Shown one piece after another: positions 3,753-21,806 of a stretch of 22,620 nucleotides of DNA. The notes below the pieces were generated by a model. The model was given only the letters and a program-made list of their open reading frames with translations, was not told where the DNA came from and did no database searches. The DNA is from a virus. The DNA lies in the IMG/VR virus record IMGVR_UViG_3300013133_001731, positions 1 to 22,620 of that record, one strand, 5' to 3'. Each line of letters begins with the position of its first letter. The stretch's first letter is position 1. The translations under genes were made by a program, and so were the position numbers.

Positions 3753-3760
3753 AGCACATA

Positions 3761-3768
3761 TATTTATA
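3761..3768 (-). promoter_or_regulatory. T4-type late promoter box, exact TATAAATA
   Basis: The minus strand reads TATAAATA, identical to the T4 late -10 consensus, directly after the terminator of the barrel gene and 8 nt before the preferred amidoligase ATG (3752). In T4 this box alone, with the gp55-gp33-clamp machinery, directs late transcription. Start of transcription is expected about 6 nt downstream, so the leader would be only a few bases. Confidence 0.7.
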
Positions 3769-3773
3769 ATATT

Positions 3774-3803
3774 AAAAAAAATAGGTCCCAAAGGACCTAT
3801 TTT
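3774..3803 (-). terminator. Intrinsic terminator after the outer-membrane barrel gene (possibly bidirectional)
   Basis: An 11-bp perfect stem (arms 3778-3788 and 3793-3803, core AGGTCC/GGACCT) encloses a 4-base loop. On the minus strand the stem runs into eight T residues (3774-3781). On the plus strand the second arm is also followed by a T-rich run, so it could work both ways. It lies 20 nt after the stop of the barrel gene, isolating that gene from the amidoligase gene. Confidence 0.88.
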
Positions 3804-8017: not shown

Positions 8018-8200
8018 CTACCAACTTTCTATATCGGTGATATCAACTTTGATACGTGATTTAGATTCAAATTCGGCAGTGATTGTGGGTCCTATTCCTG
8101 AACTATGATCGTAGATCAACATCAAATTCTCGGGATCATATTTTTTAAAAATTTCTTGTAGTTTAAGAAATTGTTGTTTGGTAATAACAAAAGATTTCAT
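8018..8200 (-). CDS. Small conserved-type phage protein, 60 residues
   Basis: The ATG at 8200 overlaps the TGA of queE (TGATG), with GGGGAA upstream as ribosome site. An in-frame TTG four codons earlier is less likely. The protein begins MKSFVITKQQFLKLQEIFKK, a predicted helix. It then has LMLIYDHSSGIGPTITAEFE, a strand-turn-strand with an HSSGIGP loop that looks conserved in phages. The function is unknown. Close coupling to queE ties it to the 7-deazaguanine operon, perhaps only by position. Confidence 0.7.
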   Translation of the reverse strand: MKSFVITKQQFLKLQEIFKKYDPENLMLIYDHSSGIGPTITAEFESKSRIKVDITDIESW

Positions 8201-9081
8201 CAAGTTCCCCAAGCATTTTTAAACAAATCAATTTGCAAACGAGCACTATATCTCAAACCCAATTTCAACGCCAATTCAGCCACTGCTCGATTATGTTGAT
8301 AATAGACTTCGTCAACTCCTCCCACTGGCATTAGATATACCGGGCCACGAAACCCTGCATTGCGATAAAGATCAATTGTGTGTTGAATTTCTTCAATGTC
8401 CTGTTGGCTGTCTACCACAAATTTCAAATAAGTATAACCCACAGATTCATAATCGACTACCACATCTGGACATATGGCCTCACTGCGTAATTCTCCGCTG
8501 GCCATGAGTTTGGGACTGACACTAAACGTGATCTCCCCGCCCGGACCGTGTGGGAATTGTCTTTGATTCCAACCTTGTAGATATTGACGAAAATCATCAG
8601 TGAGGGGTTGAGTTCCATTGGTCTCAAATGTCAATTCTCTTAGAGATTGCATCAATGGATGATCTAGCAATTCTGGATAAGCACGTTGCCACCCCAACAG
8701 TGGTTCTCCACCGGTGATAACTAGATGTTCATCTCTCCACTGTCGATAAGGCAGTAGATCTACTAGAGATTGTGCCAGCTCTGCTGCACTGGCTTTGACA
8801 ACAAACTTTTTAAATTCTGGATAGATAGAACTATAGCTGTCACATCCAGTAGATACCAATGGTAGATCTTTGAAATTTTGATATTGATCAATATTGCGGA
8901 TGATTTCCACTACTTCGGGATTGTGTGTGACCGATCGATCTAAAATATGTTCTTGGTAACGATTAAAGTTTCGACAGCGAAAATTACAGCCAAACATACG
9001 GAGGAACACACTGGGCACTCCCATATAACGAGCTTCTCCTTGATTTGAATAAAATTTTTCTGTATAGTGAAATTTTGACAT
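8200..9081 (-). CDS. queE: QueE-like radical SAM enzyme (7-carboxy-7-deazaguanine synthase)
   Basis: This 293-residue protein fits QueE, which turns 6-carboxy-tetrahydropterin into 7-carboxy-7-deazaguanine (CDG). It has FYSNQGEARYMGVPSVFLRMFGCNFRC near the N-terminus (substrate loop then cluster Cys), VITGGEPLLGW for SAM binding near residue 142, FETNGTQ near 172, and SVSPKL near 208. The usual CX3CX2C cluster motif is altered. C32 and C36 are present, but the third position is Phe39. The next Cys is C80 in STGCDSY, so a spacing of about 43 residues is implied. This may be a phage variant with an insertion in the cluster loop. The gene follows a MazG-like gene by 10 nt and overlaps the next gene. 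It forms one arm of the DpdA pathway. Confidence 0.88.
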   Translation of the reverse strand: MSKFHYTEKFYSNQGEARYMGVPSVFLRMFGCNFRCRNFNRYQEHILDRSVTHNPEVVEIIRNIDQYQNFKDLPLVSTGCDSYSSIYPEFKKFVVKASAAELAQSLVDLLPYRQWRDEHLVITGGEPLLGWQRAYPELLDHPLMQSLRELTFETNGTQPLTDDFRQYLQGWNQRQFPHGPGGEITFSVSPKLMASGELRSEAICPDVVVDYESVGYTYLKFVVDSQQDIEEIQHTIDLYRNAGFRGPVYLMPVGGVDEVYYQHNRAVAELALKLGLRYSARLQIDLFKNAWGT

Positions 9082-9091
9082 AGAATTGCTT

Positions 9092-9364
9092 TCAGTTAAA
9101 AATATTTGACCACTGTTTTAATTTTGCTCGTTTATTTAGAGCTGCAGTGTCGACATTTCGAGACTCGACAATTTTGTTTTCGATCAATAATTGAACCATA
9201 CAGACTAAATCACCCAGTTCTTCTTCGAGATGCTGTTGATTACTGCGGTGATCTCGAGGGTTTAGTCCAGTAAATCCAAATCGGTTGATTTTACTAATGG
9301 CCTGTATTACTTCGGCACATTCTTCTTGAAGAATAGCTAGAATTTCGTTGTCTTGATTGTTCAT
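9092..9364 (-). CDS. Short MazG-like (all-alpha NTP pyrophosphatase) protein, 90 residues
   Basis: The sequence shows the minimal MazG motifs. ILQEECAEVIQAISK gives the first ExxE pair and LEEELGDLVCMVQLLIE the second ExxD pair, which together bind Mg2+ around the pyrophosphate of a (d)NTP. At 90 residues it is a single four-helix unit that would need to dimerise. It starts by ATGA overlap from the methyltransferase gene and lies 10 nt before queE, so it is made together with base-modification enzymes. It might clear a toxic or competing nucleotide, but that is inference. This is the second MazG-like gene in the window. Confidence 0.8.
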   Translation of the reverse strand: MNNQDNEILAILQEECAEVIQAISKINRFGFTGLNPRDHRSNQQHLEEELGDLVCMVQLLIENKIVESRNVDTAALNKRAKLKQWSNIFN

Positions 9365-10140
9365 GATTTTTTAATGGCCTTGACACAAAGATGCCAACCC
9401 AGATGTCGACGTATAGCTGTTTTTATGGATTCCGGCATAGCTGCAAACCAGGGTTCTAATACATATTGTCCTTGGCGGTAGTGTTCTACATTATACATGA
9501 AACAATGATCTTGTCTAATGTCAATTATATCAAAAAAACCAGTGACCAACCAATGTATTTTGTCCTCATCGTAGGTTTCGGCATAGGGACATCCGGCTTG
9601 GGCTTCAAATTGGTCCAATCCGGCTTGAATCATAGCCGATTTCCAACTATGTTGAGCATAGACCAAAAATCTAAATTCTCCCCAGGGTTTCAACAAATTA
9701 TAGGCATTTTCTATTATTTTTTGTGGACTAGGACTATGATGTATGACTCCCATGCTGTAGATCAAATCAAATTCTCTAAGATTTTTAATTTGATCTAGAT
9801 CTGTGGAATCTCGACAATAAAATTCTCCGGATAAATTTTGCACAGAGAATCTTTTTTTACAAAGATCTATACTGTTTTGACTGATATCAATGCCCACATA
9901 TTCAGCACCATGACGAACAAATTGTTCAGCATCGGTGCCAATACCACAACCAATTTCCAATACTCTACGACCTTGCCAAATATGAAAGTTGGCTAGATCA
10001 TGTATATGAGGTTCAACATGATATCTACGCTGAGTGATCTCATTCCAGTATTGTTCAGTATTGGGATCAGCTTGACTGTGTTGACTGTTGCAGGGTTGAT
10101 TATCCCAATATTGAATTGTTTTTTGTTCGAGTGCATTCAT
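9361..10140 (-). CDS. Class I SAM-dependent methyltransferase
   Basis: This 259-residue protein has a clear Rossmann methyltransferase core: VLEIGCGIGTDAEQF (motif I, about 60-74), YVGIDIS (acidic end of strand 2, about 81-87), FDLIYSMGVIHHSPSP (motif IV, about 124-139) and NLLKPWGEF (motif V-VI). The first 50 residues are Gln/Asn/His-rich, and the C-terminal 90 residues form a variable lid (YAETYDEDKIHWL, FMYNVEHYRQGQYVLEPWFAAMP). It overlaps the GT2 gene (ATGA) and the MazG-like gene (ATGA), so all three are translated together. The family often methylates small molecules or sugars, so a role on a sugar or modified base is possible. The substrate is unknown. Confidence 0.85.
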   Translation of the reverse strand: MNALEQKTIQYWDNQPCNSQHSQADPNTEQYWNEITQRRYHVEPHIHDLANFHIWQGRRVLEIGCGIGTDAEQFVRHGAEYVGIDISQNSIDLCKKRFSVQNLSGEFYCRDSTDLDQIKNLREFDLIYSMGVIHHSPSPQKIIENAYNLLKPWGEFRFLVYAQHSWKSAMIQAGLDQFEAQAGCPYAETYDEDKIHWLVTGFFDIIDIRQDHCFMYNVEHYRQGQYVLEPWFAAMPESIKTAIRRHLGWHLCVKAIKKS

Positions 10141-10964
10141 TGATCACTCACAATCTTTGCCAAACGGTTTTTGACATCTGCAGCATACATCTTTGCCCAT
10201 ATATCAGATTTGCCAGCACAGCCATCTCTAAACCAATCACAAATTCGATTTTCTTTTTTCTCAATATAACTACAGATCTTGGTGGCATCTCGTAATCGAA
10301 TTTTCCTCCAATTTTGATGATTGAAATCACGGGGATCATGATGATTGCCCTCCAACATGGGACGATTTTTATAAGTTTCATCGTGATTTAATCCAGTGAG
10401 ATCATATCTTTCGTGATGGATAAACACTGGAATATCAACCATGATGTCTAGTAGATAAGCAATGTGACTGATCCAAGCATCATTGATTTGATGAGGACTG
10501 ATATATCCAGTGACATCGGTCCACTCTCGAGGAATGATTGGAAATATTGCATAGGGGTGTTCGTTGGTAGTTTCGGCACGTAACACACGAAAATTTCCAG
10601 TATATTGTCGAATCACAGTGTCCCAACTCTTGGTGGACATCACAGCATCATCGTTGAAGAAAAACAACCAATCACCTTGGCTGACTCTTGATAATGCATT
10701 GAGATATTCGTTGAGTCGTATGTAACCAATGGGATTAAATGCAATAACAGTGTATCCACATTTATATGTGGTTTCCAACATTTTTTTAAGATCGTCAGTG
10801 GCAAATTTAATAACATCAGTGTCATCACGATCCAGGGCCAATAATATTTCAATTTCACAGGGATTATCGGCAGTTGACAACAAGGATGTCACAGATTTTT
10901 CCAGTGACTTGATTCGACCACGTGTGGGCAATAAAACACTGATTTTGTATTTTTGTTTGCTCAT
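10137..10964 (-). CDS. Family 2-type (GT-A) glycosyltransferase
   Basis: This 275-residue protein begins ISVLLPTRGRIKSLEKSVTSLL, the nucleotide-sugar-binding first strand of GT2 enzymes. It then has ILLALDRDDTD (about 40-50) and a DxD-type metal motif FFFNDDAVM (Asp105-Asp106). It has no membrane segments. The C-terminal half is His/Asn-rich (HHERYDLTGLNHDETYKNRPMLEGNHHDPRDF), perhaps the acceptor site. It overlaps both the small membrane-protein gene and the methyltransferase gene by ATGA. Placement between a queuosine-precursor transporter and QueE suggests a possible role in decorating DNA bases, though surface polysaccharide or virion glycosylation cannot be excluded. Confidence 0.85.
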   Translation of the reverse strand: MSKQKYKISVLLPTRGRIKSLEKSVTSLLSTADNPCEIEILLALDRDDTDVIKFATDDLKKMLETTYKCGYTVIAFNPIGYIRLNEYLNALSRVSQGDWLFFFNDDAVMSTKSWDTVIRQYTGNFRVLRAETTNEHPYAIFPIIPREWTDVTGYISPHQINDAWISHIAYLLDIMVDIPVFIHHERYDLTGLNHDETYKNRPMLEGNHHDPRDFNHQNWRKIRLRDATKICSYIEKKENRICDWFRDGCAGKSDIWAKMYAADVKNRLAKIVSDQ

Positions 10965-11200
10965 AAAAAAGATCCTATCAATGGGGGTATGTAAATTACA
11001 GTAATTACAATTTGAACAGTCAATAAACTATATTTTTTCCACAATGTAGCTTGTATAGCCCAACCTAAATTACTGAGAAAAAGAAACCAAATATTTAACG
11101 GATAATGGTTGAGTGAAGTCAGTATTGCACCCAAAATCAACAGTGCAGTAATACTCCACTCGAACCAAAAAGTCCAGGGTTGTTGAAACTTGACAATCAC
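10961..11200 (-). CDS. Small membrane protein, 79 residues, GTG start
   Basis: The GTG start (11198-11200) overlaps the TGA of yhhQ as GTGA. The protein is strongly hydrophobic with three predicted membrane helices (FWFEWSITALLILGAILT, IWFLFLSNLGWAIQATLW, LLTVQIVITVIYIPPLIGSF) and very short loops. I do not recognise the family. Direct coupling to the YhhQ-type transporter on one side and the GT2 gene on the other suggests it works with uptake or membrane-associated steps, perhaps as a partner subunit. This is positional inference. Confidence 0.7.
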   Translation of the reverse strand: MIVKFQQPWTFWFEWSITALLILGAILTSLNHYPLNIWFLFLSNLGWAIQATLWKKYSLLTVQIVITVIYIPPLIGSFL

Positions 11201-11892
11201 CTCATGTCTCTTGCTTCTTCTCGAGTAGGAGCAAGACTGACCAATGGAGTCAATGCCAATATGATAGCCAATTTAAACAAGGTAGATCCTGACACAATTC
11301 TAGCAATTGCAGTATTATAATTGATGATTGAACCACCGAGAATCATGGGAAAGACCACAAATGCCAGAATCACAAAAAATACTGCGTCAACTGGTAGGCT
11401 CAACAAATTACTGAAAAAAGTCCTGATCCAACTACCATAATCTCGATCCCATAGCCATTGATACACATAAGTATTGACCCATTGACTGATGACAGTGGCG
11501 ATTTCTGAACCCAATACAATGCCCAAACTCATACGAAATACAGCATCGAAATTGACACTGGGTCTAAAACTAGGAGCGGGCAAAAAAGTCATCATATACA
11601 TAAAGGCTGCGATTGCTAAATTTAAAATCACACCCAATAAAATGGTCTGTCGAACTATTTCGGCACCGGCTAGTTTATGCAACATGTCGCGAGTCACAAA
11701 TACCACAGCAAATAATAAAGCACCAGCCGGGGTCACTACCCAACCAAAATCTAGAAATTTAGCAGCAGCAAAATCTGCCACAGTCATGGTCATGATCAAT
11801 GTGGCAGCAAGACCAATGATCCAATATAGAGTTCGATGATCTAGTGTCATAGATGGATTGTTTAAAAATTTATCATGTAAAGAAGTTGTCAT
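11197..11892 (-). CDS. yhhQ: YhhQ-type queuosine precursor transporter (VUT family)
   Basis: This 231-residue protein has about six hydrophobic membrane helices. It shows the family pattern of an early TVADFAAAKFLDFG segment, then VTPAGALLFAVVFVTRDMLHKLAG (the conserved TPxG...F..RD.L.K..G signature at about 52-75), and later SEIATVISQWVNTYVY and FSNLLSLPVDAVFF. YhhQ proteins import 7-deazaguanine precursors such as preQ0 and preQ1. A phage copy next to pathway genes would raise precursor supply for DpdA. The ATG has AAGGAT seven bases upstream. A 60-nt gap before it holds only a weak late-like box (CTTAAATA), so it may also be read through from the QueD gene. Confidence 0.9.
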   Translation of the reverse strand: MTTSLHDKFLNNPSMTLDHRTLYWIIGLAATLIMTMTVADFAAAKFLDFGWVVTPAGALLFAVVFVTRDMLHKLAGAEIVRQTILLGVILNLAIAAFMYMMTFLPAPSFRPSVNFDAVFRMSLGIVLGSEIATVISQWVNTYVYQWLWDRDYGSWIRTFFSNLLSLPVDAVFFVILAFVVFPMILGGSIINYNTAIARIVSGSTLFKLAIILALTPLVSLAPTREEARDMR

Positions 11893-11952
11893 TGTTGATC
11901 CTTTGTGTTGAAAACATATTTAAGAAAACAGTTTTAAATCAAAATATTTGTG

Positions 11953-12486
11953 TCATTGACATTCAAATACAGCAGAATTACCTGCATGTTCAAATACTTC
12001 AGCGGAACGTAATCGCACACCTTGGCCCAATGAATATCGAGCCTCGAATACTCGACCGTCAGGGTGTGTCCAGGAATGACCTTGTTGATATGTTTGTAAA
12101 ATTTCTCTCATGGTTCGATATGCCAATTGGGCAAATTTTTCACAACCTACCCCATCGACAATTCTCAAATCCATGATGCCTTTGTTTTGAAAACCGCCGG
12201 CGATCTTGTTGAGTTTGACAAAAGTGTTATACTCGGGGTCATCTTGAGAAATAATTGTAGTATGATCGAATTGCCATTCTGCCCATTCTTTAAATGCCTT
12301 TAGCCCGCCAAAATCCATGACCCAATTGCGATCGTCTAGTGTATCACTTTCAAATACCAAACGAATACCAATGGAGTAGCCATGCAAAAAAGAACAATGA
12401 CTGTGAGTTGCACGCCATTGCCGAAAACAACAGCTCAATCCTCGGTCATTGCCATAGGTCTTTGTGGAAACATATTTGTAACTCAC
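11953..12486 (-). CDS. queD: QueD-family T-fold enzyme (6-carboxytetrahydropterin synthase or relative), variant metal site
   Basis: The frame opens with GTG (12484-12486), with AGGA ten bases upstream; no in-frame ATG is near. The 177-residue protein matches QueD in order: a Cys-containing CSFLHGYSIG (residues 31-40, normally CGxLHGHxY), WVMDFGGLKAF (55-65), FDHTTII (73-79) and the late catalytic Glu in EVFEHAGNSA (163-172). The catalytic Cys31, Asp74-His75 and Glu166 are in place. The second His of the zinc HGH motif is Tyr37, and the first zinc His must come from THSH (28-30). QueD makes 6-carboxy-tetrahydropterin from dihydroneopterin triphosphate. A related, changed activity such as CDG decarboxylation (DpdL-like) is an alternative. 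It lies between the BI-1-like gene and yhhQ. Confidence 0.8.
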   Translation of the reverse strand: MSYKYVSTKTYGNDRGLSCCFRQWRATHSHCSFLHGYSIGIRLVFESDTLDDRNWVMDFGGLKAFKEWAEWQFDHTTIISQDDPEYNTFVKLNKIAGGFQNKGIMDLRIVDGVGCEKFAQLAYRTMREILQTYQQGHSWTHPDGRVFEARYSLGQGVRLRSAEVFEHAGNSAVFECQ

Positions 12487-12492
12487 TGTAGA

Positions 12493-13188
12493 TTAATCCT
12501 CTCGATTGCCAAATAGATTAAGTAGTGATAGGAATATATTAATAAAATTCAAATACAATGTCAAGGCTCCCACAATCTCAATATTACCGTTGTTATCTAC
12601 ACTGACTTCTTCACGAATACGTTGAGTATCCCAAGCAGTCAATCCCAGAAAGATCACCACAGCCAATGCTGAAATCACCATAGCCATAACACTGCTGCCA
12701 ATAAAAATATTAATAATACTGGCAATGATGATACCAATAAGACCAATAAACATAAACTGGCCAACACTTTCCAAACTTCGCTTGGTAAAATATCCGTATA
12801 GACTCATTGTTCCGAATAAAACAGCAGCACCCATGAAAGCACTAACAATACTACCTAATTTAAAAACCACAAAAATACTAGCAAAACTCAAGCCCATCAA
12901 TGCTGCAAAACCATGCAACATCAACAAAGCAATTTCTTTGGGAGGATTTTTATTCAGTGCCACACCAATAGCAAACACTGCCACAAGAGGCAGAAGCATT
13001 GTGACAAATTTCATCCATCCTGTAAAGAAAAAGCTCATCAATCCCGGACTGAGACTGACGAGAAAACTCACTAACATGCTGGTAATCACTGCCAATGCCA
13101 TATGATTATAAACACGCAACATGGCGTTGTTGATTTCACTGGCACTGCGATACAATTTTACTTCATCACTGGTCATAATGTTCATCAT
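12493..13188 (-). CDS. Bax inhibitor-1 / YccA-family membrane protein
   Basis: This 231-residue protein has about seven hydrophobic helices and ends with the family's typical GALTLYLNFINIFLSLLNLFG segment, preceded by FLGLTAWDTQRIRE (about 185-198), the conserved L-T-x-x-D-T-Q-x-I block. Bacterial relatives include YbhL and YccA. YccA modulates the FtsH protease, and others act as pH-gated calcium leak channels. Two adjacent ATGs occur; the first (13188) is 12 nt from AAGGAG. It sits between folE and the QueD gene with small gaps of 16 and 6 nt. A direct part in base modification is not obvious. It may protect phage membrane proteins from FtsH or keep the host alive, which is inference. Confidence 0.88.
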   Translation of the reverse strand: MMNIMTSDEVKLYRSASEINNAMLRVYNHMALAVITSMLVSFLVSLSPGLMSFFFTGWMKFVTMLLPLVAVFAIGVALNKNPPKEIALLMLHGFAALMGLSFASIFVVFKLGSIVSAFMGAAVLFGTMSLYGYFTKRSLESVGQFMFIGLIGIIIASIINIFIGSSVMAMVISALAVVIFLGLTAWDTQRIREEVSVDNNGNIEIVGALTLYLNFINIFLSLLNLFGNRED

Positions 13189-13204
13189 GATTTAATTGTT
13201 CTCC

Positions 13205-13888
13205 TTAACGACAATTATTGACAATATTCATAAATTCAAGTCTCACTGAATTATCAGTCTTGAATACACCACCTAATTTACTGGTCACAGTGGAACTACC
13301 TGTGTCCTCAATTCCTCGGCTCTTTACACAATAATGTTGAGCATCAATTACCACAGCGATATTGTCGGTTTCTAAAATGTATTGTAATGCATGATAGATT
13401 TGTTCAGTAAGACGTTCTTGAATTTGAGGACGTTTACTGAAATATTCCACGATGCGATTAATTTTGCTCAAGCCCAATACCTTTTGATTGGGAATGTAGG
13501 CCACAGTGGCCAATCCATCAATGACTACACCGTGATGCTCACAATTACTTTGCACATTGACATTACGTTCTATGACCATTTCGTCATAGCGCATTTTGTT
13601 GTCGACAGTGGTGCATTTGGGAAAATTTTCTTCTTTAAGCCCAAAGTAAATTTCGTTGATATACATTTTGGCCATACGTTTGGGTGTTTCACGTAGACTA
13701 TCGTCATTGAGATCCATGCCCACAGTTTGCCAAATTGTGGTAAATGCCTGTTCTAAAATGTCAATTTTCTTTTTGTTTTCTAGAGCCAATGTGGAATCAA
13801 TAATGGGTGTTTCCACTCCCATTTTGATTAGATGTTGACGAATTTGGTGACCCAGAACAGGGTCACATTTGGTTTTATCGAAACTCAT
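13205..13888 (-). CDS. folE: GTP cyclohydrolase I (FolE)
   Basis: This 227-residue protein is a clear GTP cyclohydrolase I, which converts GTP to 7,8-dihydroneopterin triphosphate, the first step of both folate and 7-deazaguanine synthesis. The zinc and catalytic residues are visible: NCEHH (Cys116, His118-119) and the partner AQHYCV (His185, Cys187). So are YIPNQKVLGLSKINRIVEYFSKRPQIQERLT (about 131-161) and RGIEDTGSSTVTSKLGGVF (about 191-209). Length fits the family. The ATG has an AAGGAG site seven bases upstream. A late-type box and a 9-bp hairpin lie in its leader. It feeds QueD and QueE in this window. Confidence 0.95.
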   Translation of the reverse strand: MSFDKTKCDPVLGHQIRQHLIKMGVETPIIDSTLALENKKKIDILEQAFTTIWQTVGMDLNDDSLRETPKRMAKMYINEIYFGLKEENFPKCTTVDNKMRYDEMVIERNVNVQSNCEHHGVVIDGLATVAYIPNQKVLGLSKINRIVEYFSKRPQIQERLTEQIYHALQYILETDNIAVVIDAQHYCVKSRGIEDTGSSTVTSKLGGVFKTDNSVRLEFMNIVNNCR

Positions 13889-13927
13889 ATTTGTTCTCCT
13901 TACTCAAATATCGATATATTGTTGATT

Positions 13928-13956
13928 TATGTTGAGATCTATCATACCTCAACATA
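13928..13956 (-). promoter_or_regulatory. Hairpin in the folE leader
   Basis: A perfect 9-bp inverted repeat, TATGTTGAG (13928-13936) and CTCAACATA (13948-13956), with an 11-base loop, lies between the glycosyltransferase stop and folE. There is no T-run after it on the minus strand, so it does not look like an intrinsic terminator. The expected late transcription start (near 13953) falls in the upstream arm, so only read-through RNA would form the full stem. It could protect or process RNA. Confidence 0.6.
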
Positions 13957-13958
13957 GA

Positions 13959-13966
13959 TATTTATC
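13959..13966 (-). promoter_or_regulatory. T4-type late promoter box, GATAAATA, before folE
   Basis: The minus strand reads GATAAATA overlapping the stop codon of the GT-B gene, in the 76-nt gap before folE. Start of transcription would be near 13953, giving a leader of about 65 nt. The same one-base variant appears at 4293 and 5370. Confidence 0.5.
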
Positions 13967-15158
13967 AATACTTCTGTTGTCTTAGATATTTGCGATAATC
14001 ACTGCTATCTCTGATATATTGTTGACCTTGCCCTGTCATGATATCAATGATTCGATCGATGGTACCGTCGGTCCAATCACTGATTTGACCTTGCCTGACA
14101 TGTGGTTGAGTCAACAATGGCATGAGTTTTCTAATGGCATCATCCAATGACCAAGGCACATACATTCTTTCGTGGTCATTGGCCAATGTCTCAGGAAAAC
14201 TACGATAAGCTGGAAATAACACGTTGCACCCCAACGTATCAGCTTCACTGACAGTATTAGATACCCAATCTTGCAATGCACAATTAAACAATACACGAGT
14301 ATTATTCAACATTTTGTAGTAGGTATTTTTGTCGAGATTTTCGTAAATAGTCAAAAGACCCCGTTGTTCGAGATCTCGAGTTCTTTGCATGTAGCTAGAG
14401 TTATTGCTTTTGAGTTTACCGCCAGAAAAAATTGCAAATTCAATACGTCGATCTTGTGATAAACCATTGAGATCATGTCTACGATTCCATTCTTCGATGA
14501 GATCCATGTAGAAGTCTGGTTGTTTTTCTTGATCCCATCTAGCTGCGAATCCCACACGCAGTGGTCGTTGATTGAACGGTTGCAGTTGTGGCACTCTTTC
14601 CAGCACTTCTTGCTTGCCAAATGCCAAACCAGAAATATTATAGATTGGAGCAGACCAACCAGCAATACGCATATGTGCTACCATTTCTTCATTGGTGGCT
14701 AAAATCGCAGTGGCAAATTCGTTGACCATTTTTTCATAATGGCCCATCCACGTCGACATGCCCCAAACATGAACGAAATCGTCAGGGTCAATAGTTTGTG
14801 CAAGGCAGCGAATATAAATGCGAGGACGCATATTGCCAGGGATTTGATCGAGAATATAAGGTAAGCTCTCGATACCGGGTTGAAACATGTCTTCAAAATA
14901 GACCACATCTTGATCAGAGACCTCACCATTGCGCATCATTTTAACAAGATTCATCATTTGGCTCATACCAAAATATGAGCGTCCGTGGGCATCTAAAACT
15001 TGTCCCACTGAGATAGCTTGAGAATTGTCCAGTGTTTGTCCGGGCACATAGACCACATCAAGTCCTCGACGATCAAATACTCTCCGATTCCATTCTGTGA
15101 GTTGTAGAGTATATCTTTCTTGGTATGGCTCTAACATCATATAGATCAACTTACGCAT
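13965..15158 (-). CDS. GT-B fold glycosyltransferase (GT1/GT4-like)
   Basis: This 397-residue protein looks like a two-domain GT-B glycosyltransferase. The N-terminal acceptor half starts KLIYMMLEPYQERY. The C-terminal donor half opens with LRVGFAARWDQEKQPDFYMDLIEEW (about 199-223), the usual start of the nucleotide-sugar domain. It continues with LLTIYENLDKNTYYKMLNNTRVLFNCALQDWVSNTVSEADTLGCNVLFPAYRSFPE, carrying the Glu-rich signature of retaining GT4-type enzymes. No signal peptide or membrane helix is seen. AAAAAGG lies upstream of the ATG. It sits between the T-fold protein region and folE. In T4-like phages such enzymes can glucosylate DNA bases, so a modified-base acceptor is a candidate. 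Cell-surface sugar is the alternative. Confidence 0.82.
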   Translation of the reverse strand: MRKLIYMMLEPYQERYTLQLTEWNRRVFDRRGLDVVYVPGQTLDNSQAISVGQVLDAHGRSYFGMSQMMNLVKMMRNGEVSDQDVVYFEDMFQPGIESLPYILDQIPGNMRPRIYIRCLAQTIDPDDFVHVWGMSTWMGHYEKMVNEFATAILATNEEMVAHMRIAGWSAPIYNISGLAFGKQEVLERVPQLQPFNQRPLRVGFAARWDQEKQPDFYMDLIEEWNRRHDLNGLSQDRRIEFAIFSGGKLKSNNSSYMQRTRDLEQRGLLTIYENLDKNTYYKMLNNTRVLFNCALQDWVSNTVSEADTLGCNVLFPAYRSFPETLANDHERMYVPWSLDDAIRKLMPLLTQPHVRQGQISDWTDGTIDRIIDIMTGQGQQYIRDSSDYRKYLRQQKY

Positions 15159-15198: not shown

Positions 15199-15414
15199 TT
15201 AGACTTCTAATTTTTTGGCGTCTTCGGCCCATTGATTTTTGAAATTTTTGCCAGCAGCAAATTTACTGTATTGTTGCCAGGCATAACTGCGAAAATTGTT
15301 GATGTCATTTTCGCTATACCTATAGCCATATTCTCGACAGAAATCTAGATATTTTTCCAGTAGATCGAAAACTTCAGCAACTTGTGTATTGGGTTGAATT
15401 TTGATTTTTGACAT
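15199..15414 (-). CDS. Small conserved-type phage protein, 71 residues
   Basis: I choose the ATG of MSKIKIQPNT (15414), preceded by AAGGTAATATC. A longer frame to 15456 has no ribosome site. The protein reads VAEVFDLLEKYLDFCREYGYRYSENDINNFRSYAWQQYSKFAAGKNFKNQWAEDAKK, nearly all helix with many aromatic residues, and resembles a widespread small protein of T4-like marine phages. No function is known to me. It lies 40 nt before the GT-B gene and 62 nt after the T-fold gene. That gap shows nothing beyond the ribosome site. Confidence 0.72.
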   Translation of the reverse strand: MSKIKIQPNTQVAEVFDLLEKYLDFCREYGYRYSENDINNFRSYAWQQYSKFAAGKNFKNQWAEDAKKLEV

Positions 15415-15476
15415 GATATTACCTTGTTTGTGGATATTGTTTGATGTATGGACCAACAGATATTTTGTTTTTGCTG

Positions 15477-15926
15477 TCAGACACTGATTAATTGAGGTCG
15501 ATGTGTATCAAATTTAATAAAACAGCCATTCTCTCCATCTTCGCTGACTTCAATCCAAACATTGCGATGTGGATATCGAGCAGCAATCTGTAAGTATAAC
15601 TCCTCTGCGATCATTTCGCAACTGCGATAATTCAGTTGCAAAACACTCGATGGGCCAGAATACAGTTGTTCAAGCCAACGTTTGAATTGTATGAATTCCA
15701 CGTCTCGATCTGAATGTGTGACTGCAATCCAAACACGGAAATGAAAAATATGGCGATGAGGACTCGCCAAAAAACTGACATCATATTGATCTCCTGTGGC
15801 CAATGCGGGATCTACCGCTGCTGCTGGGTAACAATGAATTCCTTCTTTTTGGAACGTCACCCAGATCATCTTTTTAGCCGAATTTTTAATACGCTCGGCA
15901 GTTTCACGTAGTTCTTGTGTCATCAT
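15477..15926 (-). CDS. QueD-like T-fold phage protein, 149 residues
   Basis: This protein has the outline of a QueD/PTPS-type T-fold: VTFQKEGIHCYPAAA (about 23-37), PHRHIFHFRVWIAV with an HxH pair (57-69), HSDRDVEFIQFKRWLEQL (71-88), RSCEMIAEELYLQIAARYP (101-119) and IEVSEDGENG (125-133). The HRHxFxFxV block parallels the LHGHxYxVxV zinc strand of QueD, and the final Glu of EVSED parallels the catalytic Glu. The order of the Cys residues differs from QueD, so the reaction is probably different. The EFxxFKxWL stretch is also loosely reminiscent of QueF. It may act on a pterin or on a 7-deazaguanine. Two ATGs are adjacent and no good ribosome site is seen. It lies downstream of the DpdA group. 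Confidence 0.6.
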   Translation of the reverse strand: MMTQELRETAERIKNSAKKMIWVTFQKEGIHCYPAAAVDPALATGDQYDVSFLASPHRHIFHFRVWIAVTHSDRDVEFIQFKRWLEQLYSGPSSVLQLNYRSCEMIAEELYLQIAARYPHRNVWIEVSEDGENGCFIKFDTHRPQLISV

Positions 15927-16062: not shown

Positions 16063-16370
16063 GGTTTTTTCAATGATTCCATAATGATAATTTTGTTGAG
16101 TTCTTCACCTATATTGTCGCTGTCATTGAGTATATAGAGATTGACTTGTTCTCGCTCAACACGATCTGAATCTTGTATGACTTGAATGATCATACCACCA
16201 TTGGCTCGATAGATATTAAATCGCATGGGATGACCAGCCAACTGTGACTGCATGGCAGAAGATAGTGCATTCAATCCCATCATTTGGGGTTGGGGAGATT
16301 CTAAGGATCGATGTTCCCAGGCCCATTGACATTTTTTTAAAAACCAACGATTGAATAATTTACCGATCAT
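16059..16370 (-). CDS. Conserved-type phage protein, 103 residues, in the DpdA operon
   Basis: The N-terminal MIGKLFNRWFLKKCQWAWEHR is basic, aromatic and amphipathic, and may bind membrane or nucleic acid. The rest reads HPMRFNIYRANGGMIIQVIQDSDR followed by VNLYILNDSDNIGEELNKIIIMESLKK, a strand-turn-strand unit with an RANGG turn and a conserved-looking IGEELxKII helix. I associate this pattern with T4-like marine phages but know no function. It begins by ATGA overlap from the 179-residue gene and ends by ATGA overlap into the 32-residue frame. Confidence 0.72.
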   Translation of the reverse strand: MIGKLFNRWFLKKCQWAWEHRSLESPQPQMMGLNALSSAMQSQLAGHPMRFNIYRANGGMIIQVIQDSDRVEREQVNLYILNDSDNIGEELNKIIIMESLKKP

Positions 16371-16906
16371 AATACTTGATCTTGCTCATAGTTGGACCAG
16401 TCAGTGAAAACTGTTCTTTTTGTCAAATCACTAAGTTGATGACACCAAACACCAGGATTGGTTTTGGCAAAATCAATGTCATCGATTTTTAATACTGCAT
16501 TATAACCCAATAAATTGAGATAAGGAATCGGTGCACTGATTATGGGAATAAATTTATTATTTTCGCAGAAACCCGATTCCAATAGTCCTTCGACTTGACC
16601 AATGTGAACATCAAGACTGCACCACAAATTTTGTGATAGACAACTGTCAATCATTTTTTCCCATTGGTGCCAATTTTCGTAGTCGTCGGTGGTAATTAAT
16701 TTGGGAAAACTTTGATTAGCACCAAAGTAAATATGAGTAATGTGTTGGTCAGGGTCAAGATATTCTTGAGATTTTTTTACAATTTTTAAAATTTCTTCCA
16801 CTGATTGAACACCCACAACAAACAAGGTCATTCGACCATGAGCCGGAGTAAATTCAACTTCTCGCCCAATGAAAAAATCTTTGTCATCATGATCGGGTCT
16901 ATTCAT
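16367..16906 (-). CDS. Unknown protein, 179 residues, translationally coupled to dpdA
   Basis: The ATG overlaps the TGA of dpdA (ATGA). The protein begins DFFIGREVEFTPAHGRMTLFVVG. It continues with ITHIYFGANQSFPKLI, WEKMIDSCLSQNLWCSLDVHIGQVEGLLESG, FIPIISAPIPYLNLLGYNAVLKIDDIDF and NPGVWCHQLSDL. The alternation of strands and helices and several buried Asp/His residues suggest an alpha/beta enzyme or a degenerate TIM-barrel-like fold. I cannot name a family. Strict coupling to DpdA makes it a prime candidate partner, for example a DNA-targeting subunit, or an enzyme acting on the inserted base. This is inference from position only. Confidence 0.75.
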   Translation of the reverse strand: MNRPDHDDKDFFIGREVEFTPAHGRMTLFVVGVQSVEEILKIVKKSQEYLDPDQHITHIYFGANQSFPKLITTDDYENWHQWEKMIDSCLSQNLWCSLDVHIGQVEGLLESGFCENNKFIPIISAPIPYLNLLGYNAVLKIDDIDFAKTNPGVWCHQLSDLTKRTVFTDWSNYEQDQVL

Positions 16907-18582
16907 TTTTGTTCCAATAGTTCCAGTAAAGTTGGGTCAAAGTCTTGTTGATCACAATCTTGGTCTATATCGATGTCTTGAGGATTTTCGGGTTCAAACA
17001 GTGAATTAAATACATCAGTATTGGGTCGCTTGAGTTTTTTACCAGTAAATCCTCTTGTGCCAATGATCTGATCAAAACAAGATTCATAGTATTCTATACG
17101 TTCAAGACTTTTTTGTCTATCTTTTTGGCTAAAAATATCATCAACAATTCGTCGAAAATCATAGTGTTCATCGGTTGATCCGGCCAACATCAAGGGCATT
17201 TGGTTATTTTGATAAAGTTGGTTAGCAGTTTGAACCGCATTGATATGATGCCAAACATTATGCGACATCAACAATGCGTAACTAAAACTATCCCAACTGG
17301 TATTACCAATATTACCTAATTTGTTTTTGTCATTGGGACCATAATAACAAATATCCGAAATTTTACATAGTTGAGAAACAGGACTGTCATCAAATACTTG
17401 ATGTATACCATCTTGTATCACTGTGTCACGAAACGATCTATGGTCATTTTTATATTTTTTGTCATCAGCCGTGGGTTCCATTCGATATACCCATTTAGAT
17501 CTGTGTTGACAGTCATTGTGAATATATAGTTGTCCATTGGCAGTGGCTAGAAATGGACTGGCACAATCAAAACTGATTGTGAAATTGGGGTTGTGATATT
17601 TTCGCACAGAATTTTGTATATCTGTCAATAGACAAGCCCATTCCAATTTGCTCGTGCCTAAGAAATGCATCCAATCATGCACCCCGGTTTGCAATAGCCC
17701 ATCATGTATGATATCAACTAGTCGCTTTAATACTAGATGGACATCACACATATTCTGACCCCCCATAGCCCATCCATCAAAATGTCGTCCTGGGTAGTGT
17801 TGGGGATCACAATAGTGTTTCATAGTTTGATACCATTGTTCAGCACTGGTATGATTATCACCTTGTAACACATTGAGAATTCGTGTACCACCATTTTCAA
17901 CACCACGACGATTATTGATAAAATATTCGTTGTTGTAGCGTGTGGCATCTACAGCTTCTTTCAATGTGGTAATACCACAAGCTCGTCCAGCTTCTTGATC
18001 ATGTATAACCCATGTGGGTATGTCCAATGTCATACTGTAATCGGCAATACTGTCTAACCAGGTCAATACTGCTCTACGACGTGCCTCAGTGGCATCAATT
18101 AATTTTTGATATTCGGCCACCGGATCAACTGTCACAGTGCGATTTTTCTTTTTGATTGTGGTTGTGCCCTGTGCCCTTAATTCAGCAAATTTTGCAGCAA
18201 CTTCTGCACTGTTGGGATCACGCCATTCACCTGGCCAACGAGCTTTGGCTATTTGAAAGCCCCCACTGTCACCCAACATAAATGTGCCAGGTTCTCTCTG
18301 GCGGACCATGTCTTCGCTGGGATCTGATTTAGTGAGATCCAAATTGGCATGTCCGGCACTATATAAGCTCCAACGATAAGGAAACAGAGCTTGTTGGCTA
18401 TTAAGCCAATTAAGTTGTTCCATGTCAGTAAGTCCTTGTGGAAAACGTGCAGGATCAACATAATTGCCCACACGTTGTCGGCCAATGAAAGTGGCATAAA
18501 ATCCAGAGATAGCTGGCAAAAAAACCGCCCATTGGCTGAGCCCATTGGGTCCTGTTTGTTTAGCGGTGAAATCGTCTTGCAT
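16903..18582 (-). CDS. dpdA: DpdA-type DNA 7-deazaguanine transglycosylase (TGT superfamily)
   Basis: This 559-residue protein is built like tRNA-guanine transglycosylase but is much longer than the usual 370-400. The key TGT positions are present. MLGDSGGFQ (Asp105) corresponds to TDSGGYQ, MTLDIPT (Asp187) to the base-reading Asp, and NVLQGDN (240) to VQGG. GWAMGGQN (about 270-277) corresponds to the GGL glycine pair, and ISFDCASPFLATANGQLYI (Asp339) to the catalytic nucleophile segment FDCVxPTRxARNG. A zinc-like set (CKISDIC, then LLMSHN) follows. DpdA enzymes exchange guanine in DNA for a 7-deazaguanine and protect phage DNA from restriction. Co-occurrence with folE, queD, queE and yhhQ supports DNA over tRNA as the target. 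AGGAAA lies in the end of the preceding nuclease gene. The next gene overlaps by 4 nt. Confidence 0.88.
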   Translation of the reverse strand: MQDDFTAKQTGPNGLSQWAVFLPAISGFYATFIGRQRVGNYVDPARFPQGLTDMEQLNWLNSQQALFPYRWSLYSAGHANLDLTKSDPSEDMVRQREPGTFMLGDSGGFQIAKARWPGEWRDPNSAEVAAKFAELRAQGTTTIKKKNRTVTVDPVAEYQKLIDATEARRRAVLTWLDSIADYSMTLDIPTWVIHDQEAGRACGITTLKEAVDATRYNNEYFINNRRGVENGGTRILNVLQGDNHTSAEQWYQTMKHYCDPQHYPGRHFDGWAMGGQNMCDVHLVLKRLVDIIHDGLLQTGVHDWMHFLGTSKLEWACLLTDIQNSVRKYHNPNFTISFDCASPFLATANGQLYIHNDCQHRSKWVYRMEPTADDKKYKNDHRSFRDTVIQDGIHQVFDDSPVSQLCKISDICYYGPNDKNKLGNIGNTSWDSFSYALLMSHNVWHHINAVQTANQLYQNNQMPLMLAGSTDEHYDFRRIVDDIFSQKDRQKSLERIEYYESCFDQIIGTRGFTGKKLKRPNTDVFNSLFEPENPQDIDIDQDCDQQDFDPTLLELLEQK

Positions 18583-18586
18583 TAAA

Positions 18587-20059
18587 TTATTTCCTATAAT
18601 AGATTAAGTTACCACAGTCCCATATTCTATAATATCCGTTCAAGGACATGTTTTGGTATTCGCTGAGATCTGGATCGTATGTTTTTAATTTTTTTTCTAA
18701 TAGATGTTTCTGAAATTGGTTTCTAGATAACATCAATTCTGGATCATTGAGGTGAAAATATTTATAGTTAGGCGATGATTGTCCCACTATTTCAAACCCT
18801 GCTGATTGATATAAATTGTTGTTAATATTAGTGGACCATCGACGATCGGCATAAGATATCAACGAATTTGGTCCATGAGTTTTGTCAAAATAATACAATA
18901 TTTTTGATAAACCGCCGACCACTGAGTGATATTTTTTAGAACAATATCTCAACAGTTCAAAATCAAAAGATCGGTTAAATCTAGAATTACCAAATCCAGC
19001 TGCTGCAATTAATTGGTCATTATAAAATAATCCTATTTTTATTCTACTAGATATTGCACCTTGCAAATGATTTTGTTCAACAAATGCTTTATAAGACTGG
19101 TTATCAATTTCTTTTACTTGACATTTTCTTGCTGGTATCTTGACACTGTTGCCCAACAAATGGTTTAGTTTGCTTTTTATTATATCGTTTTTTATGGGAT
19201 CATTCCATTCTGTGTCATAGATATGTAATAGATGTATGTTTTGTTTTTCGCATTCTAGAGTTTTGCTTATATGATATTTTTTTGATTTGCCCTTTTCTTC
19301 GCAATGCCAATATATTCCATTGACTTCTATAGCAAGATTTTTTTCAGGTAACCATATGTCGATTTCTTGTGATGTTAAAATCTTTCGATTGCTTTGTTCA
19401 ATAACTGTGTCAGTGATATTTGACAAATATTCTATTATGTCTTTTTCGACTGTTGACATAGAATGTCTAATCACCGACAAATCGTTCTCAGCAAACAAGT
19501 TCAGTATAGGAGTAGGTGATACCCTTAACTCTTCTGCGATTTGTTTACAAGATTTTTTAAGTTCATAATGTTGATGTTTGAGCCACTCAATGTCTTTCAT
19601 CAAATGCAAAGATTCTTGAGATATATGTATTTGTTTATTGGTGTTTCTACCAAATTTTTCTAAATTGGTTTTCTTACGTTTTTCTAGTATAAAATCCTTT
19701 TGAGTTTCAAACCGTTCAACTGCACTTTTTTGAATTTTTTCAACGATCTCTGGACTTTTACTGGGATTGTCTACTCCGTAATTGGCAACAAACGTTGCTC
19801 GCATTTTTTCTTTGACTACAGGACTTTTTGAGGGATTATCAACTCCATATTTGGCACGAAATGTATCAACCAGTTTTTGTCTTGACTCGGCATTGTGCAT
19901 GGGATGCCCACCAAATTTATTGATATTGGTTTTTTGTTTTTTTTCTAATATGTCTGGATCGATGCCCATGCACTTATTACTGCACCAATCCCAATACTGG
20001 TTTCGACTTTTTACGAATCTGGTGACTAAATTACCACAAATCTTACACTGTTTATCCAT
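18587..20059 (-). CDS. Free-standing homing-type endonuclease: Zn finger, repeats, Vsr-like nuclease, Mom-like GNAT
   Basis: This 490-residue protein has four parts. Residues 5-30 form a CxxC...CxxxC zinc knuckle. Residues 45-140 hold repeated KYGVDNPSKSP-type units, as in the DNA-binding parts of homing enzymes. A helix-turn-helix (CKQIAEELRVSPTPILNLF) spans 171-189. Residues 230-300 carry a Vsr/PD-(D/E)xK-like nuclease (EIDIWLPEKNLAIEVNG, WHCEEKG, HLLHIYDTEW). Residues 305-440 resemble the Mom-like GNAT domain fused to many phage homing nucleases (FVEQNHLQGA, LLRYCSKK, VVGGLSKIL, ISYADRRWS). It is inserted between the clamp gene and dpdA, looks even more AT-rich than its neighbours, and is probably mobile. 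Its ribosome site (GAGGTATTCAAT) is buried in a hairpin (20059-20113). The stop is 4 nt before dpdA. Confidence 0.85.
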   Translation of the reverse strand: MDKQCKICGNLVTRFVKSRNQYWDWCSNKCMGIDPDILEKKQKTNINKFGGHPMHNAESRQKLVDTFRAKYGVDNPSKSPVVKEKMRATFVANYGVDNPSKSPEIVEKIQKSAVERFETQKDFILEKRKKTNLEKFGRNTNKQIHISQESLHLMKDIEWLKHQHYELKKSCKQIAEELRVSPTPILNLFAENDLSVIRHSMSTVEKDIIEYLSNITDTVIEQSNRKILTSQEIDIWLPEKNLAIEVNGIYWHCEEKGKSKKYHISKTLECEKQNIHLLHIYDTEWNDPIKNDIIKSKLNHLLGNSVKIPARKCQVKEIDNQSYKAFVEQNHLQGAISSRIKIGLFYNDQLIAAAGFGNSRFNRSFDFELLRYCSKKYHSVVGGLSKILYYFDKTHGPNSLISYADRRWSTNINNNLYQSAGFEIVGQSSPNYKYFHLNDPELMLSRNQFQKHLLEKKLKTYDPDLSEYQNMSLNGYYRIWDCGNLIYYRK

Positions 20060-20131: not shown

Positions 20132-20857
20132 TTATTTAGTGTAAGCCGAAAGACTATAATTGTAAGTGGCCAATCCAGAATTCACAGTGATTTGCATGGC
20201 ACCCACATCGCTAATGCGAATATATTTGTCGCCGGCCAAACTCAAAATTCCAATGATTTGATTAATCGGCCATGACCAACTGTTTTTTAGTATTCCGCCG
20301 ACATCAGGTTGAAACACAAAGTTTCCTGCATGACTACTGTGATTGCCAAAATGAAATTTCAAATCATTGTTTTTAGTTTCGGTTCGAAAAACTGTTTCCT
20401 CGGCATTGGCTTGAGCCTGCATTTTGAGTCTTTGTATGGAATTCACACTGGGTTCAAATTCTATACACCATGCAGGTTGTTTGAGATTATAAGTTTTGAG
20501 TTGTTCATCTATGATTTTGGCAGACATAAATCGATAGCTGTTATGAAAATCTCCCAAACTGTTTTCAAAATTAATACCGTCCAGCAATTGATCACTGGCT
20601 CGCTGTGACACACTGAGTTTGGCATTTTCTCGATATTCGGGCAAATTCAATAAAATTTTCAATTTATTGAGATTTGGCATTCCAAATGTGCCAGTGAATT
20701 CTGTAACAGCCTTGGCGAATTCACCATGTAATACCACAGATTTATCTTCGGCCATGGAATAGATTCGAGTTTGGTCTTGTGTTCCGGTGATTTTTATCAA
20801 ACTAATAAAACCTAGATCATAGGTATGTTGAACTAGGTCTAACAATTGGTCTCTCAT
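20132..20857 (-). CDS. 45: Sliding clamp, T4 gp45-like DNA polymerase processivity factor
   Basis: I choose the ATG at 20857, which has a perfect AAGGAG six bases upstream. A frame starting 16 codons earlier runs back into the methyltransferase gene and lacks a ribosome site. The 241-residue product is close to T4 gp45 in size. It shows the phage-clamp pattern: LLDLVQHTYDLGFISLIKITGT, RIYSMAEDKSVVLHGEF, and MPNLNKLKILLNLPEYRENAKLSV, like the gp45 LNGFLGILSL segment. Later it has AWCIEFEPS and, near the end, IIGILSLAGDKYIRISDVGAMQITVNSG. The trimeric ring tethers polymerase and, in T4, also activates late transcription, matching the late boxes seen here. It lies 31 nt after the methyltransferase-like gene. 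Confidence 0.85.
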   Translation of the reverse strand: MRDQLLDLVQHTYDLGFISLIKITGTQDQTRIYSMAEDKSVVLHGEFAKAVTEFTGTFGMPNLNKLKILLNLPEYRENAKLSVSQRASDQLLDGINFENSLGDFHNSYRFMSAKIIDEQLKTYNLKQPAWCIEFEPSVNSIQRLKMQAQANAEETVFRTETKNNDLKFHFGNHSSHAGNFVFQPDVGGILKNSWSWPINQIIGILSLAGDKYIRISDVGAMQITVNSGLATYNYSLSAYTK

Positions 20858-20888
20858 GATTTCTCCTTGAATAGTAATATTATATGAT

Positions 20889-21806
20889 TTATTTAGATTT
20901 CGCAATAATTTTTGCTAGAGTTTGCCCACCTCTCAATGAACTTATTTCTCCAGGTTTTTGTATTTCCCACCATGATATTCCGGACACATCTCGACTTTGA
21001 AAAATGATATGATATCCCATATCGAATATCATGGGTTTTAACATAGAACCAGAGATATAAGAATTTACATTGGATTCTGCCAGACTTATTTCGTGACTAT
21101 AATCGCAGTCGTTGAAACTAAAAGAACAAATTCCTCCGGGTTTCAACAGTTGATATATCTGAATTAGATATTGTTTGACTTGATCAATGTCTTTGTAGTT
21201 GAAATAACACAACGCAGTTATCAGTCCAAAATTACCAATGGGCAAAGGATGTAAAAAATTTTCTCGTGTGTGATCGATCACATAGGGGCGTAGTCTCTGT
21301 TGAAAAGCTTCGGGAAAAGTTGACACTGACACATCTAATAGTGCTCGATCGAGATCTACTAGATATAAAGGATTACATGACACCATAGCACGTATATCAT
21401 CCAGTGCACTGGGTCTAAAAATCAATCCCGAAAAAATCCAATCACTGTGAGATTTTAATTTATTGACAATCAATTGATGTGTCTGTGGACTGAGTTTCCA
21501 CCGGGTATTTGTTATGTAGTTGTAATCCTCGATGAGAATTTTTCCAAAAAATTCTCGACTTTGGTTTAGATATTTTTGTTGCAATGAACTTATTTGTTGG
21601 TCTAGACTGGCAATTTCTTGGTCGATTCTCGTTGAAAATAATTGATCAAGATCTTGATATTTACTGTCAATGTCATGAAATTTTTCTTTCAAATAATCAT
21701 TGATGTAAAACAATGTAGCTCGATTTTTTTGTCCTGTAGTCAAGAAAAAATTTTCTTTGAGATCATGTAATTTTTTTCTTTGAGCAACGATTTCGCTGAG
21801 TTTCAT
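20889..21806 (-). CDS. Methyltransferase-like protein with N-terminal coiled coil, between polymerase and clamp
   Basis: This 305-residue protein has a charged helical N-terminus (about 40-85, IDQEIASLDQQISSLQQKYL, coiled-coil-like) and a class I methyltransferase-like C-terminal part. NPLYLVDLDRALL (about 145-157) resembles the acidic strand 2, FGLITALCYFNY (193-204) motif IV, and IYQLLKPGGICSFSFNDCDYS (217-237) the post-motif. The Gly-rich SAM loop expected before NPLYLVD is degenerate (SGLIFRPSALDDIRAM), so SAM binding may be weak or lost. The ATG shares one base with the polymerase stop (TAATG), so it is translationally coupled to the replication genes. The target is unknown; a replication accessory or DNA/RNA-related role is possible. 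Confidence 0.7.
   Translation of the reverse strand: MKLSEIVAQRKKLHDLKENFFLTTGQKNRATLFYINDYLKEKFHDIDSKYQDLDQLFSTRIDQEIASLDQQISSLQQKYLNQSREFFGKILIEDYNYITNTRWKLSPQTHQLIVNKLKSHSDWIFSGLIFRPSALDDIRAMVSCNPLYLVDLDRALLDVSVSTFPEAFQQRLRPYVIDHTRENFLHPLPIGNFGLITALCYFNYKDIDQVKQYLIQIYQLLKPGGICSFSFNDCDYSHEISLAESNVNSYISGSMLKPMIFDMGYHIIFQSRDVSGISWWEIQKPGEISSLRGGQTLAKIIAKSK
20890..20897 (-). promoter_or_regulatory. Possible late-type box TCTAAATA before the clamp gene
   Basis: The minus strand reads TCTAAATA at the end of the methyltransferase-like gene, two bases from TATAAATA. CTAAATA-type boxes occur in some marine T4-like phages. A TATAAT also lies shortly downstream, but I see no -35 match. The clamp gene is expected to be early, so this may be chance in AT-rich DNA. 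Confidence 0.25.

Follow-up and report, generated by a model that had tools for sequence, protein, structure and literature searches.

Glycosyltransferase genes that accompany the DpdA pathway in phages: a candidate route to sugar-bearing 7-deazaguanine in DNA

Do some phages attach sugars to the 7-deazaguanine in their DNA? The question is raised by IMG/VR virus record IMGVR_UViG_3300013133_001731, a 22.6-kb freshwater phage fragment (positions 1 to 22,620; hereafter the window), in which two glycosyltransferase genes and a methyltransferase gene lie among genes of the 7-deazaguanine pathway, all of the relevant genes being on the minus strand. An initial annotation had proposed a sugar- or methyl-decorated 7-deazaguanine, with glycosylation of lipopolysaccharide (LPS) or of the virion as the rival explanation. 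In this work the window proteins were assigned to families by Pfam, PHROG and NCBIfam scans, and their relatives were followed in other phages. That these genes travel together across hundreds of relatives suggests that phages do put sugars on a modified base, and we consider it probable that the window carries a DNA-hypermodification module placing a sugar on 7-deazaguanine in DNA. FolE, QueD and QueE, all encoded in the window, would make the 7-deazaguanine precursor, which the DpdA-like transglycosylase would insert into phage DNA in exchange for guanine. The GT-B glycosyltransferase and a near-obligate partner of QueD fold would then transfer a first sugar from a nucleotide-sugar donor onto the deazaguanine, and a family 2 glycosyltransferase (GT2) and a methyltransferase (MT), where present, would attach another sugar to the first and methylate it. 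Some T-even phages extend glucosyl-hydroxymethylcytosine with a further sugar, and the GT2/MT step is proposed by analogy. In this scheme we infer the acceptor (the base in DNA), the identity of the sugar, the function of the T-fold partner and the sequence of steps.

The GT-B glycosyltransferase and its company

The core member of the module is a 397-aa protein (13965-15158) whose gene lies directly before folE, as the initial annotation had it, with a gap of 76 bp. The protein itself has no Pfam, PHROG or NCBIfam match. We assign it to the GT-B fold and GT4 type because its distant relatives match Glycos_transf_1 and because of its predicted structure: the AlphaFold2 (AF2) model (pLDDT 79.5; the alignment behind it was rather shallow) has the two-domain GT-B fold, and in VIA-align it reaches Z 24.2 to sucrose-phosphate synthase and Z 20-23 to MshA, BshA, SenB and BGluT. 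The GT4 donor motif R-x4-K is kept, with R207 and K212 invariant; the E-x7-E motif is present in the GT-Bs of PAC2, ACP17 and Phosso and takes the form D297-x7-E305 in the clade of the window. Conservation is high: the homologue in Synechococcus phage BUCT-ZZ01 is 66% identical, as against 55% for the FolE, 45% for the QueE and 41% for the QueD of that phage.

With which genes does this protein travel? Its relatives occur in at least 597 IMG/VR stretches, of which the 80 best loci form our close set, and 50 distant loci came from a second search, for which the divergent PAC2/Phosso/ACP17 group was the starting point. A profile built on the divergent GT-Bs was too diverse for scanning and three closer GT-Bs were used instead; the GT-B of Xanthomonas phage X1, as a single query, had no matches in IMG/VR. 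Counts over all loci are limited by contig ends, and we therefore also give them for loci with full flanks, i.e. 6 kb on both sides of the gene. DpdA was found in 72 of the 80 close loci, FolE in 67 and a 149-aa protein in 77; with full flanks, DpdA together with Que genes was present in 36/36, as was the 149-aa protein. Among the distant loci with full flanks, 29 of 31 had DpdA or FolE/QueD/QueE within 10 kb and 30 had the 149-aa protein. The isolated phages BUCT-ZZ01, ACP17 (of Acidovorax), X1, PAC2 (PA5oct group) and Phosso all carry GT-B relatives (about 20-66% identity) along with dpdA/que genes, and relatives down to about 20-26% identity keep the company of dpdA, folE and queE in six phage lineages. 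The genes need not be neighbours: dpdA lies 28-170 kb from the GT-B gene in several genomes, and it is present though not adjacent in Phosso (about 170 kb off) and in contigs of 306, 310, 465 and 85 kb. Three contigs with GT-B and FolE (183, 77 and 55 kb), which may be fragments, had no DpdA of either of the two groups described below.

The DpdA-like DNA guanine transglycosylase of the window (559 aa, 16903-18582) is identified by its invariant aspartates (D105 in DSGGFQ, and D339) and by a profile link to the DpdA group of ACP17, X1 and BUCT-ZZ01 (hhalign 96.8%, E 2e-10), the two groups being remote relatives at 19% identity. The ACP17 protein matches the tRNA-guanine transglycosylase (TGT) model TIGR00449 at 4.6e-7, below the curated cut-off; the window protein has no direct PDB or Pfam match, and its profile finds no TGT in the PDB. 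GT-B and the 149-aa protein accompany both groups. Since DpdA may be of either group, the link between GT-B and DpdA survives replacement of the transglycosylase.

As a control we chose Bax1-I, a membrane protein gene (PF01027; 12493-13188), for its place between queD and folE in the window. Its relatives, in 34 long loci, had GT-B in five and DpdA in four, and Bax1-I itself was found in 9/80 close GT-B loci; we regard it as a passenger here because it mostly resides in phages without nearby deazaguanine genes. After dereplication at 90% identity, at least two of FolE, QueD and QueE lay within 6 kb in 3/21 Bax1-I loci as against 17/24 close GT-B loci (Fisher p 2e-4), 18/28 distant GT-B loci (p 5e-4) and 14/15 MT loci (p 3e-6), p values which overstate independence because the phages are related. 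The arrangement is not a product of chance, since it recurs in other contigs and stands far above a control gene from the same operon. Co-occurrence with dpdA had been proposed as the check on the decorated-base idea, and GT-B, GT2 and MT all track the deazaguanine/DpdA pathway; we did not see the three genes equally often in relatives without dpdA, and it is Bax1-I that lacks the association. The data show the genes, their fold classes and a co-occurrence across divergent phages that exceeds that of the control, and we are confident that GT-B is functionally tied to the DpdA pathway.

Two other GT-B observations should be recorded. BUCT-ZZ01 has a second GT-B gene (L002:17010-18353) adjoining folE and dpdA, relatives of which follow queE in 19/80 close loci. 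Matches of the ACP17 GT-B in PhiXhv/Ep032 were set aside as BshA-like: they adjoin genes resembling GlmS and GlcNAc-malate deacetylase, and these phages have no ACP17-type dpdA, while PhiXhv-12 does carry FolE.

The QueD-fold partner and the accessory sugar genes

The most constant companion of GT-B, with orthologues in all six lineages, is the 149-aa protein (15477-15926; phrog_17812). Its AF2 model (pLDDT 94.7, from 44 sequences) is a T-fold whose best Foldseek match is E. coli QueD (E 1.3e-5), with VIA-align Z 11.4 to QueD and 12.2 to archaeal PTPS. The profile of the family aligns to QueD (87%), whereas seven other profiles tried all stayed under 1%; against the PDB the sequence profile gave chance matches only, the likeness to QueD having come from the fold. 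H31, and H57 and H59 of the HxH motif, are invariant across the 44 sequences and would be zinc ligands, as expected from QueD, the correspondence being one of pattern and not of superposed coordinates. The catalytic cysteine that QueD has shortly before HxH has no conserved counterpart at that place in these sequences, and a canonical QueD is encoded alongside in the cluster. What could a second protein of this fold do? Our guess is a role in preparing or presenting the acceptor group for the sugar.

GT2 (10137-10964; NDD motif, PF00535 Glycos_transf_2 E 1.6e-5, phrog_14945 E 2.6e-14) and MT (9361-10140) are accessory. The latter is a class I S-adenosylmethionine (SAM) methyltransferase with the SAM-binding motif VLEIGCGIG (Methyltransf_25 E 2.6e-18, Methyltransf_25/11 E 1e-17 to 1e-18 over the matches, phrog_22502 E 9e-61). 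Seen from the GT-B side the two are rare, in 9/80 and 8/80 close loci respectively. Sixty-nine loci were retrieved by the MT sequence alone, and 20 of the 21 with full flanks had the arrangement FolE-QueD-GT2-MT-QueE, GT2 being present in 20/21. Of 23 whole MT contigs, 18 contained DpdA and 19 GT-B; the exceptions are short contigs, a contig of 87 kb that lacks both, and a case in which GT-B is truncated. Occurrence of GT2 and MT is thus nested inside the GT-B phages, and the reverse was not seen. In ACP17 and PA5oct, which carry GT-B, we found neither MT nor GT2. The nearest relative outside DpdA phages is found for MT in Synechococcus phage Bellamy (46%) and for GT2 in Pelagibacter phage HTVC008M (27%), in cassettes that hold nucleotide-sugar epimerases, UDP-glucose dehydrogenase, a carbamoyltransferase and other glycosyltransferases; neither phage has an ACP17-group DpdA or FolE. 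Because the closest non-DpdA relatives of MT lie in sugar cassettes, its target is more likely to be a sugar than the base. Of the methyl-decorated base that had been suggested, the connection of MT with the pathway therefore stands, while a methyl group on the base itself is the less likely form. That GT2 and MT elaborate the sugar added by GT-B is a possibility to which we give slightly less than even weight.

Other sugar genes recur in these clusters. When the open reading frames (ORFs) between the deazaguanine genes of 197 loci were clustered into families, we found a GalE-like epimerase (64 loci), HIT (54), a phosphoribosyltransferase (45), a DegT-type aminotransferase (43 short-form and 8 full-length), a cytidylyltransferase (34), a B12-binding radical SAM protein (30), GMP reductase (9), a UDP-sugar dehydrogenase (Ugd, 7), an alcohol dehydrogenase and others. 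The GalE representative scores above the NCBIfam equivalog cut-off (294.8 vs 262.3). Of 53 epimerase matches in 40 long records, 14 lay no more than 2 kb from GT-B, in 2.2% of the sequence (p 5e-12), as did 9 of 26 DegT matches (p 2e-9), and GalE is 9-30 bp from GT-B in nine genomes. The window is a plain version of the cluster, without inserted nucleotide-sugar genes. Tentatively, and with clearly less assurance than for the module itself, we envisage that glycan-bearing deazaguanine DNA is widespread, the conserved GT-B and its QueD-derived partner, with a new function, forming the bond between base and sugar while swappable cassettes vary the glycan. It is an equally tentative idea that GalE, DegT, Ugd, GT2, methyltransferase and B12-radical SAM cassettes would change the glycan from phage to phage, somewhat like an O-antigen on DNA. 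In 30 clusters the 641-aa B12-binding radical SAM protein (L033:8969-10891) adjoins GT2 genes, and methylation or rearrangement of a sugar is a conceivable role. The phosphoribosyltransferase (L105:18976-19509) and the GMP reductase (L019:10194-11288) found inside clusters perhaps salvage the guanine that DpdA releases.

The acceptor, rival explanations and known systems

Several observations weigh against a sugar on the DNA base. A GT-B fold also suits enzymes with small-molecule substrates. Shared descent accounts for part of the linkage, since many of the contigs are from related freshwater phages and the cluster often has genes for DNA polymerase and the clamp as neighbours. The relatives of MT and GT2 (27-46% identity) sit in dpdA-free sugar cassettes of marine phages, and several GT-B phages, with a further epimerase/DegT locus well away from dpdA, thus make other sugars as well. 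Finally, the chemistry of the acceptor is affected by QueC, which was found neither in the 22.6-kb window nor in BUCT-ZZ01, ACP17, PAC2 or Phosso, all searched as complete records, and which gave a weak match in X1. As QueC was not found, the phage product may be 7-carboxy-7-deazaguanine, unless the QueC of the host is used; the acceptor would then be a carboxylate, a nitrile made by host QueC or a further product. Hydroxymethyl-pyrimidines were considered as acceptors and dropped. BUCT-ZZ01, ACP17 and X1 have no thymidylate synthase/hydroxymethylase homologue (PF00303), which makes such an acceptor unlikely in these phages; a PF00303 gene, for either enzyme, occurs in 8/16 records. The DpdA phage 2.275.O of Vibrio has QueC and a QueF annotation, and this GT-B was not matched there. 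In this phage an Amidoligase_2-like gene, QueF, YhhQ and QueC come after a window-type DpdA (L090:14797-17727), and its decoration may differ.

Could the three genes instead make or modify a glycan of the cell surface (LPS or capsule) or of virion proteins, their place among the deazaguanine genes reflecting no more than a common variable region? The polysaccharide-like cassettes of Bellamy and HTVC008M and the epimerase/DegT loci elsewhere in several phages speak for this rival, which the initial annotation had raised. It explains poorly why GT-B tracks dpdA/que at 20-26% identity through six lineages, including genomes in which the genes are unlinked, why the passenger Bax1-I of the same operon has no such association and why the closest companion of GT-B is a QueD-fold protein and not a polysaccharide gene; we consider it unlikely. 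Somewhat less likely still is that GT-B glucosylates a small molecule, either a pterin, like the cyanobacterial tetrahydrobiopterin glucosyltransferases, or deazaguanine that is still free, ahead of the DpdA step. Pterins are products of FolE and QueD, and the module contains FolE as well as a QueD-fold protein; BGluT structures (5ze7, 5zes and 9v0l) are among the structural matches; and the host of BUCT-ZZ01, Synechococcus elongatus, is the source of the solved BGluT. However, BGluT (Z about 21.6-21.8) is matched or surpassed by other GT4 enzymes (Z 22-24), the sequence profile search returned no BGluT chain, and QueE and DpdA would be superfluous for pterin glucosides. We give very little weight to hitchhiking, in which an ancestral replication/modification region of large phages would have fixed the gene order and the glycosyltransferases and MT would have no role in modification. 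The DNA polymerase and clamp neighbours favour it, but gene order, DpdA type and position all vary, dpdA and GT-B co-occur over the long distances given above, and passengers such as Bax1-I turn over while GT-B and the T-fold protein stay.

How does a module that glycosylates deazaguanine in DNA compare with known systems? By gene content it is a DpdA deazaguanine system plus a glycosyltransferase layer. With the modification described for phages 9g, nt-1 and CAjan (FolE/QueD/QueE/DpdA) it shares the precursor genes, a TGT-family DpdA and YhhQ; it differs in its conserved GT-B, in its second QueD-fold protein and in the absence of QueC from most relatives tested. The survey of DpdA phages by Hutinet et al. 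(2019; PMC6884629) does not mention glycosyltransferases. T4-type glucosylation of hydroxymethylcytosine is similar in that GT-B enzymes decorate a modified base and in that some phages extend the sugar. Here, however, the deazaguanine would be inserted by transglycosylation, BUCT-ZZ01, ACP17 and X1 lack a hydroxymethylase homologue, and the GT-B is GT4-like, with no Pfam match to the T4 AGT/BGT-type glucosyltransferase families. The module would thus work like T4 glucosylation without being a member of the T4 system.

The decorated base had been thought undescribed, which holds only in part. Work by Cui et al. in 2023 (cited in PMC12783734) is said to have found methylated preQ1 (dPreQ1 methylation) in phage DNA, with a methylase, DpdM, whose fold is reportedly new for nucleic-acid methylases. 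There too a methyl group is added in a deazaguanine system, whereas in our case an MT of the usual class I kind is paired with GT2. As for sugars, mannosyl- and galactosyl-queuosine of animal tRNA are already sugar-decorated 7-deazaguanines (PMC12518689, PMC8654956). In these the sugar is likewise placed on a 7-deazaguanine nucleoside after base exchange by TGT, but the nucleic acid is tRNA and the sugar is attached to the queuosine cyclopentenediol, and we saw no genes for that group here. We found no sequence relation to the enzymes concerned; the Pfam scan showed no match to QTMAN or QTGAL, and no further search was aimed at them. No report of glycosylated 7-deazaguanine in DNA was found in the literature searched, whose coverage stops short of the 2023 work on further phage deazaguanines.

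If the proposal is true, sugar-bearing 7-deazaguanine joins the known DNA hypermodifications, and large phages would have, besides hydroxymethyl-pyrimidines, a second way of shielding their DNA with bulky sugars from restriction and CRISPR. A T-fold family and a glycosyltransferase family, both so far unassigned, would gain a place in a pathway. The gene set is found in isolated phages of Pseudomonas, Sinorhizobium, Acidovorax, Xanthomonas and Synechococcus as well as in the IMG/VR stretches, and because such isolates exist the proposal can be tested at once.

Gene order in the window and minor observations

In the direction of transcription the window reads from the C-terminal part of a DNA polymerase (21806-22528) through a 305-aa methyltransferase-like gene and a clamp-like gene (20132-20905), so called by its position and by homologues annotated as PCNA/beta clamp only, to a homing-endonuclease-like gene (18587-20059; phrog_3339 E 2e-121) and dpdA. 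The homing-endonuclease-like gene also matches a Mom-like modification family weakly (E 1e-6). Next comes a 179-aa protein without family match (16367-16906), which joins dpdA by an ATGA overlap; its homologue adjoins dpdA in ACP17, and profile matches occur in 31/80 close and 21/49 distant GT-B loci. A 103-aa gene, the T-fold gene, an 85-aa gene (15199-15456; present in 70/80 close loci) and GT-B follow, and then folE (13205-13888; GTP cyclohydrolase I, PF01227 E 1.8e-60), Bax1-I and queD (11953-12486; PF01242 (PTPS) E 1.6e-13, phrog_2389 E 2e-33).

The remaining genes are tightly packed. A YhhQ-type queuosine-precursor/vitamin transporter (11197-11892; PF02592 (Vut_1) E 1.2e-27) overlaps by GTGA with a 79-aa membrane ORF (10961-11200), which is DUF6552-like (PF20189 E 5.6e-5, below the cut-off) and was found in 4/80 close loci, always with YhhQ and GT2. 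ATGA overlaps then join this ORF to GT2, GT2 to MT, and MT to a MazG-type nucleotide pyrophosphohydrolase (9092-9364; PF03819 E 1.2e-7). The coordinates and junctions confirm that GT2 and MT are locked by ATGA overlaps between the YhhQ-linked membrane gene and the mazG-queE pair. After a gap of 10 bp the series ends with queE (8200-9081), for 7-carboxy-7-deazaguanine synthase, assigned by its 45% identity to QueE of BUCT-ZZ01 and by matches, below the cut-offs, to the QueE models of NCBIfam (down to 1.4e-11). Megablast found no phage relatives of the window. Elsewhere in the window, a 786-aa ORF (1431-3791) with an ARVGIEFEM motif resembles Amidoligase_2 proteins by eye, and a 201-aa ORF (339-944) likewise resembles a class II aldolase; relatives of the latter lie directly after queD in the GT-B loci L015, L021, L025, L034, L038 and L040.

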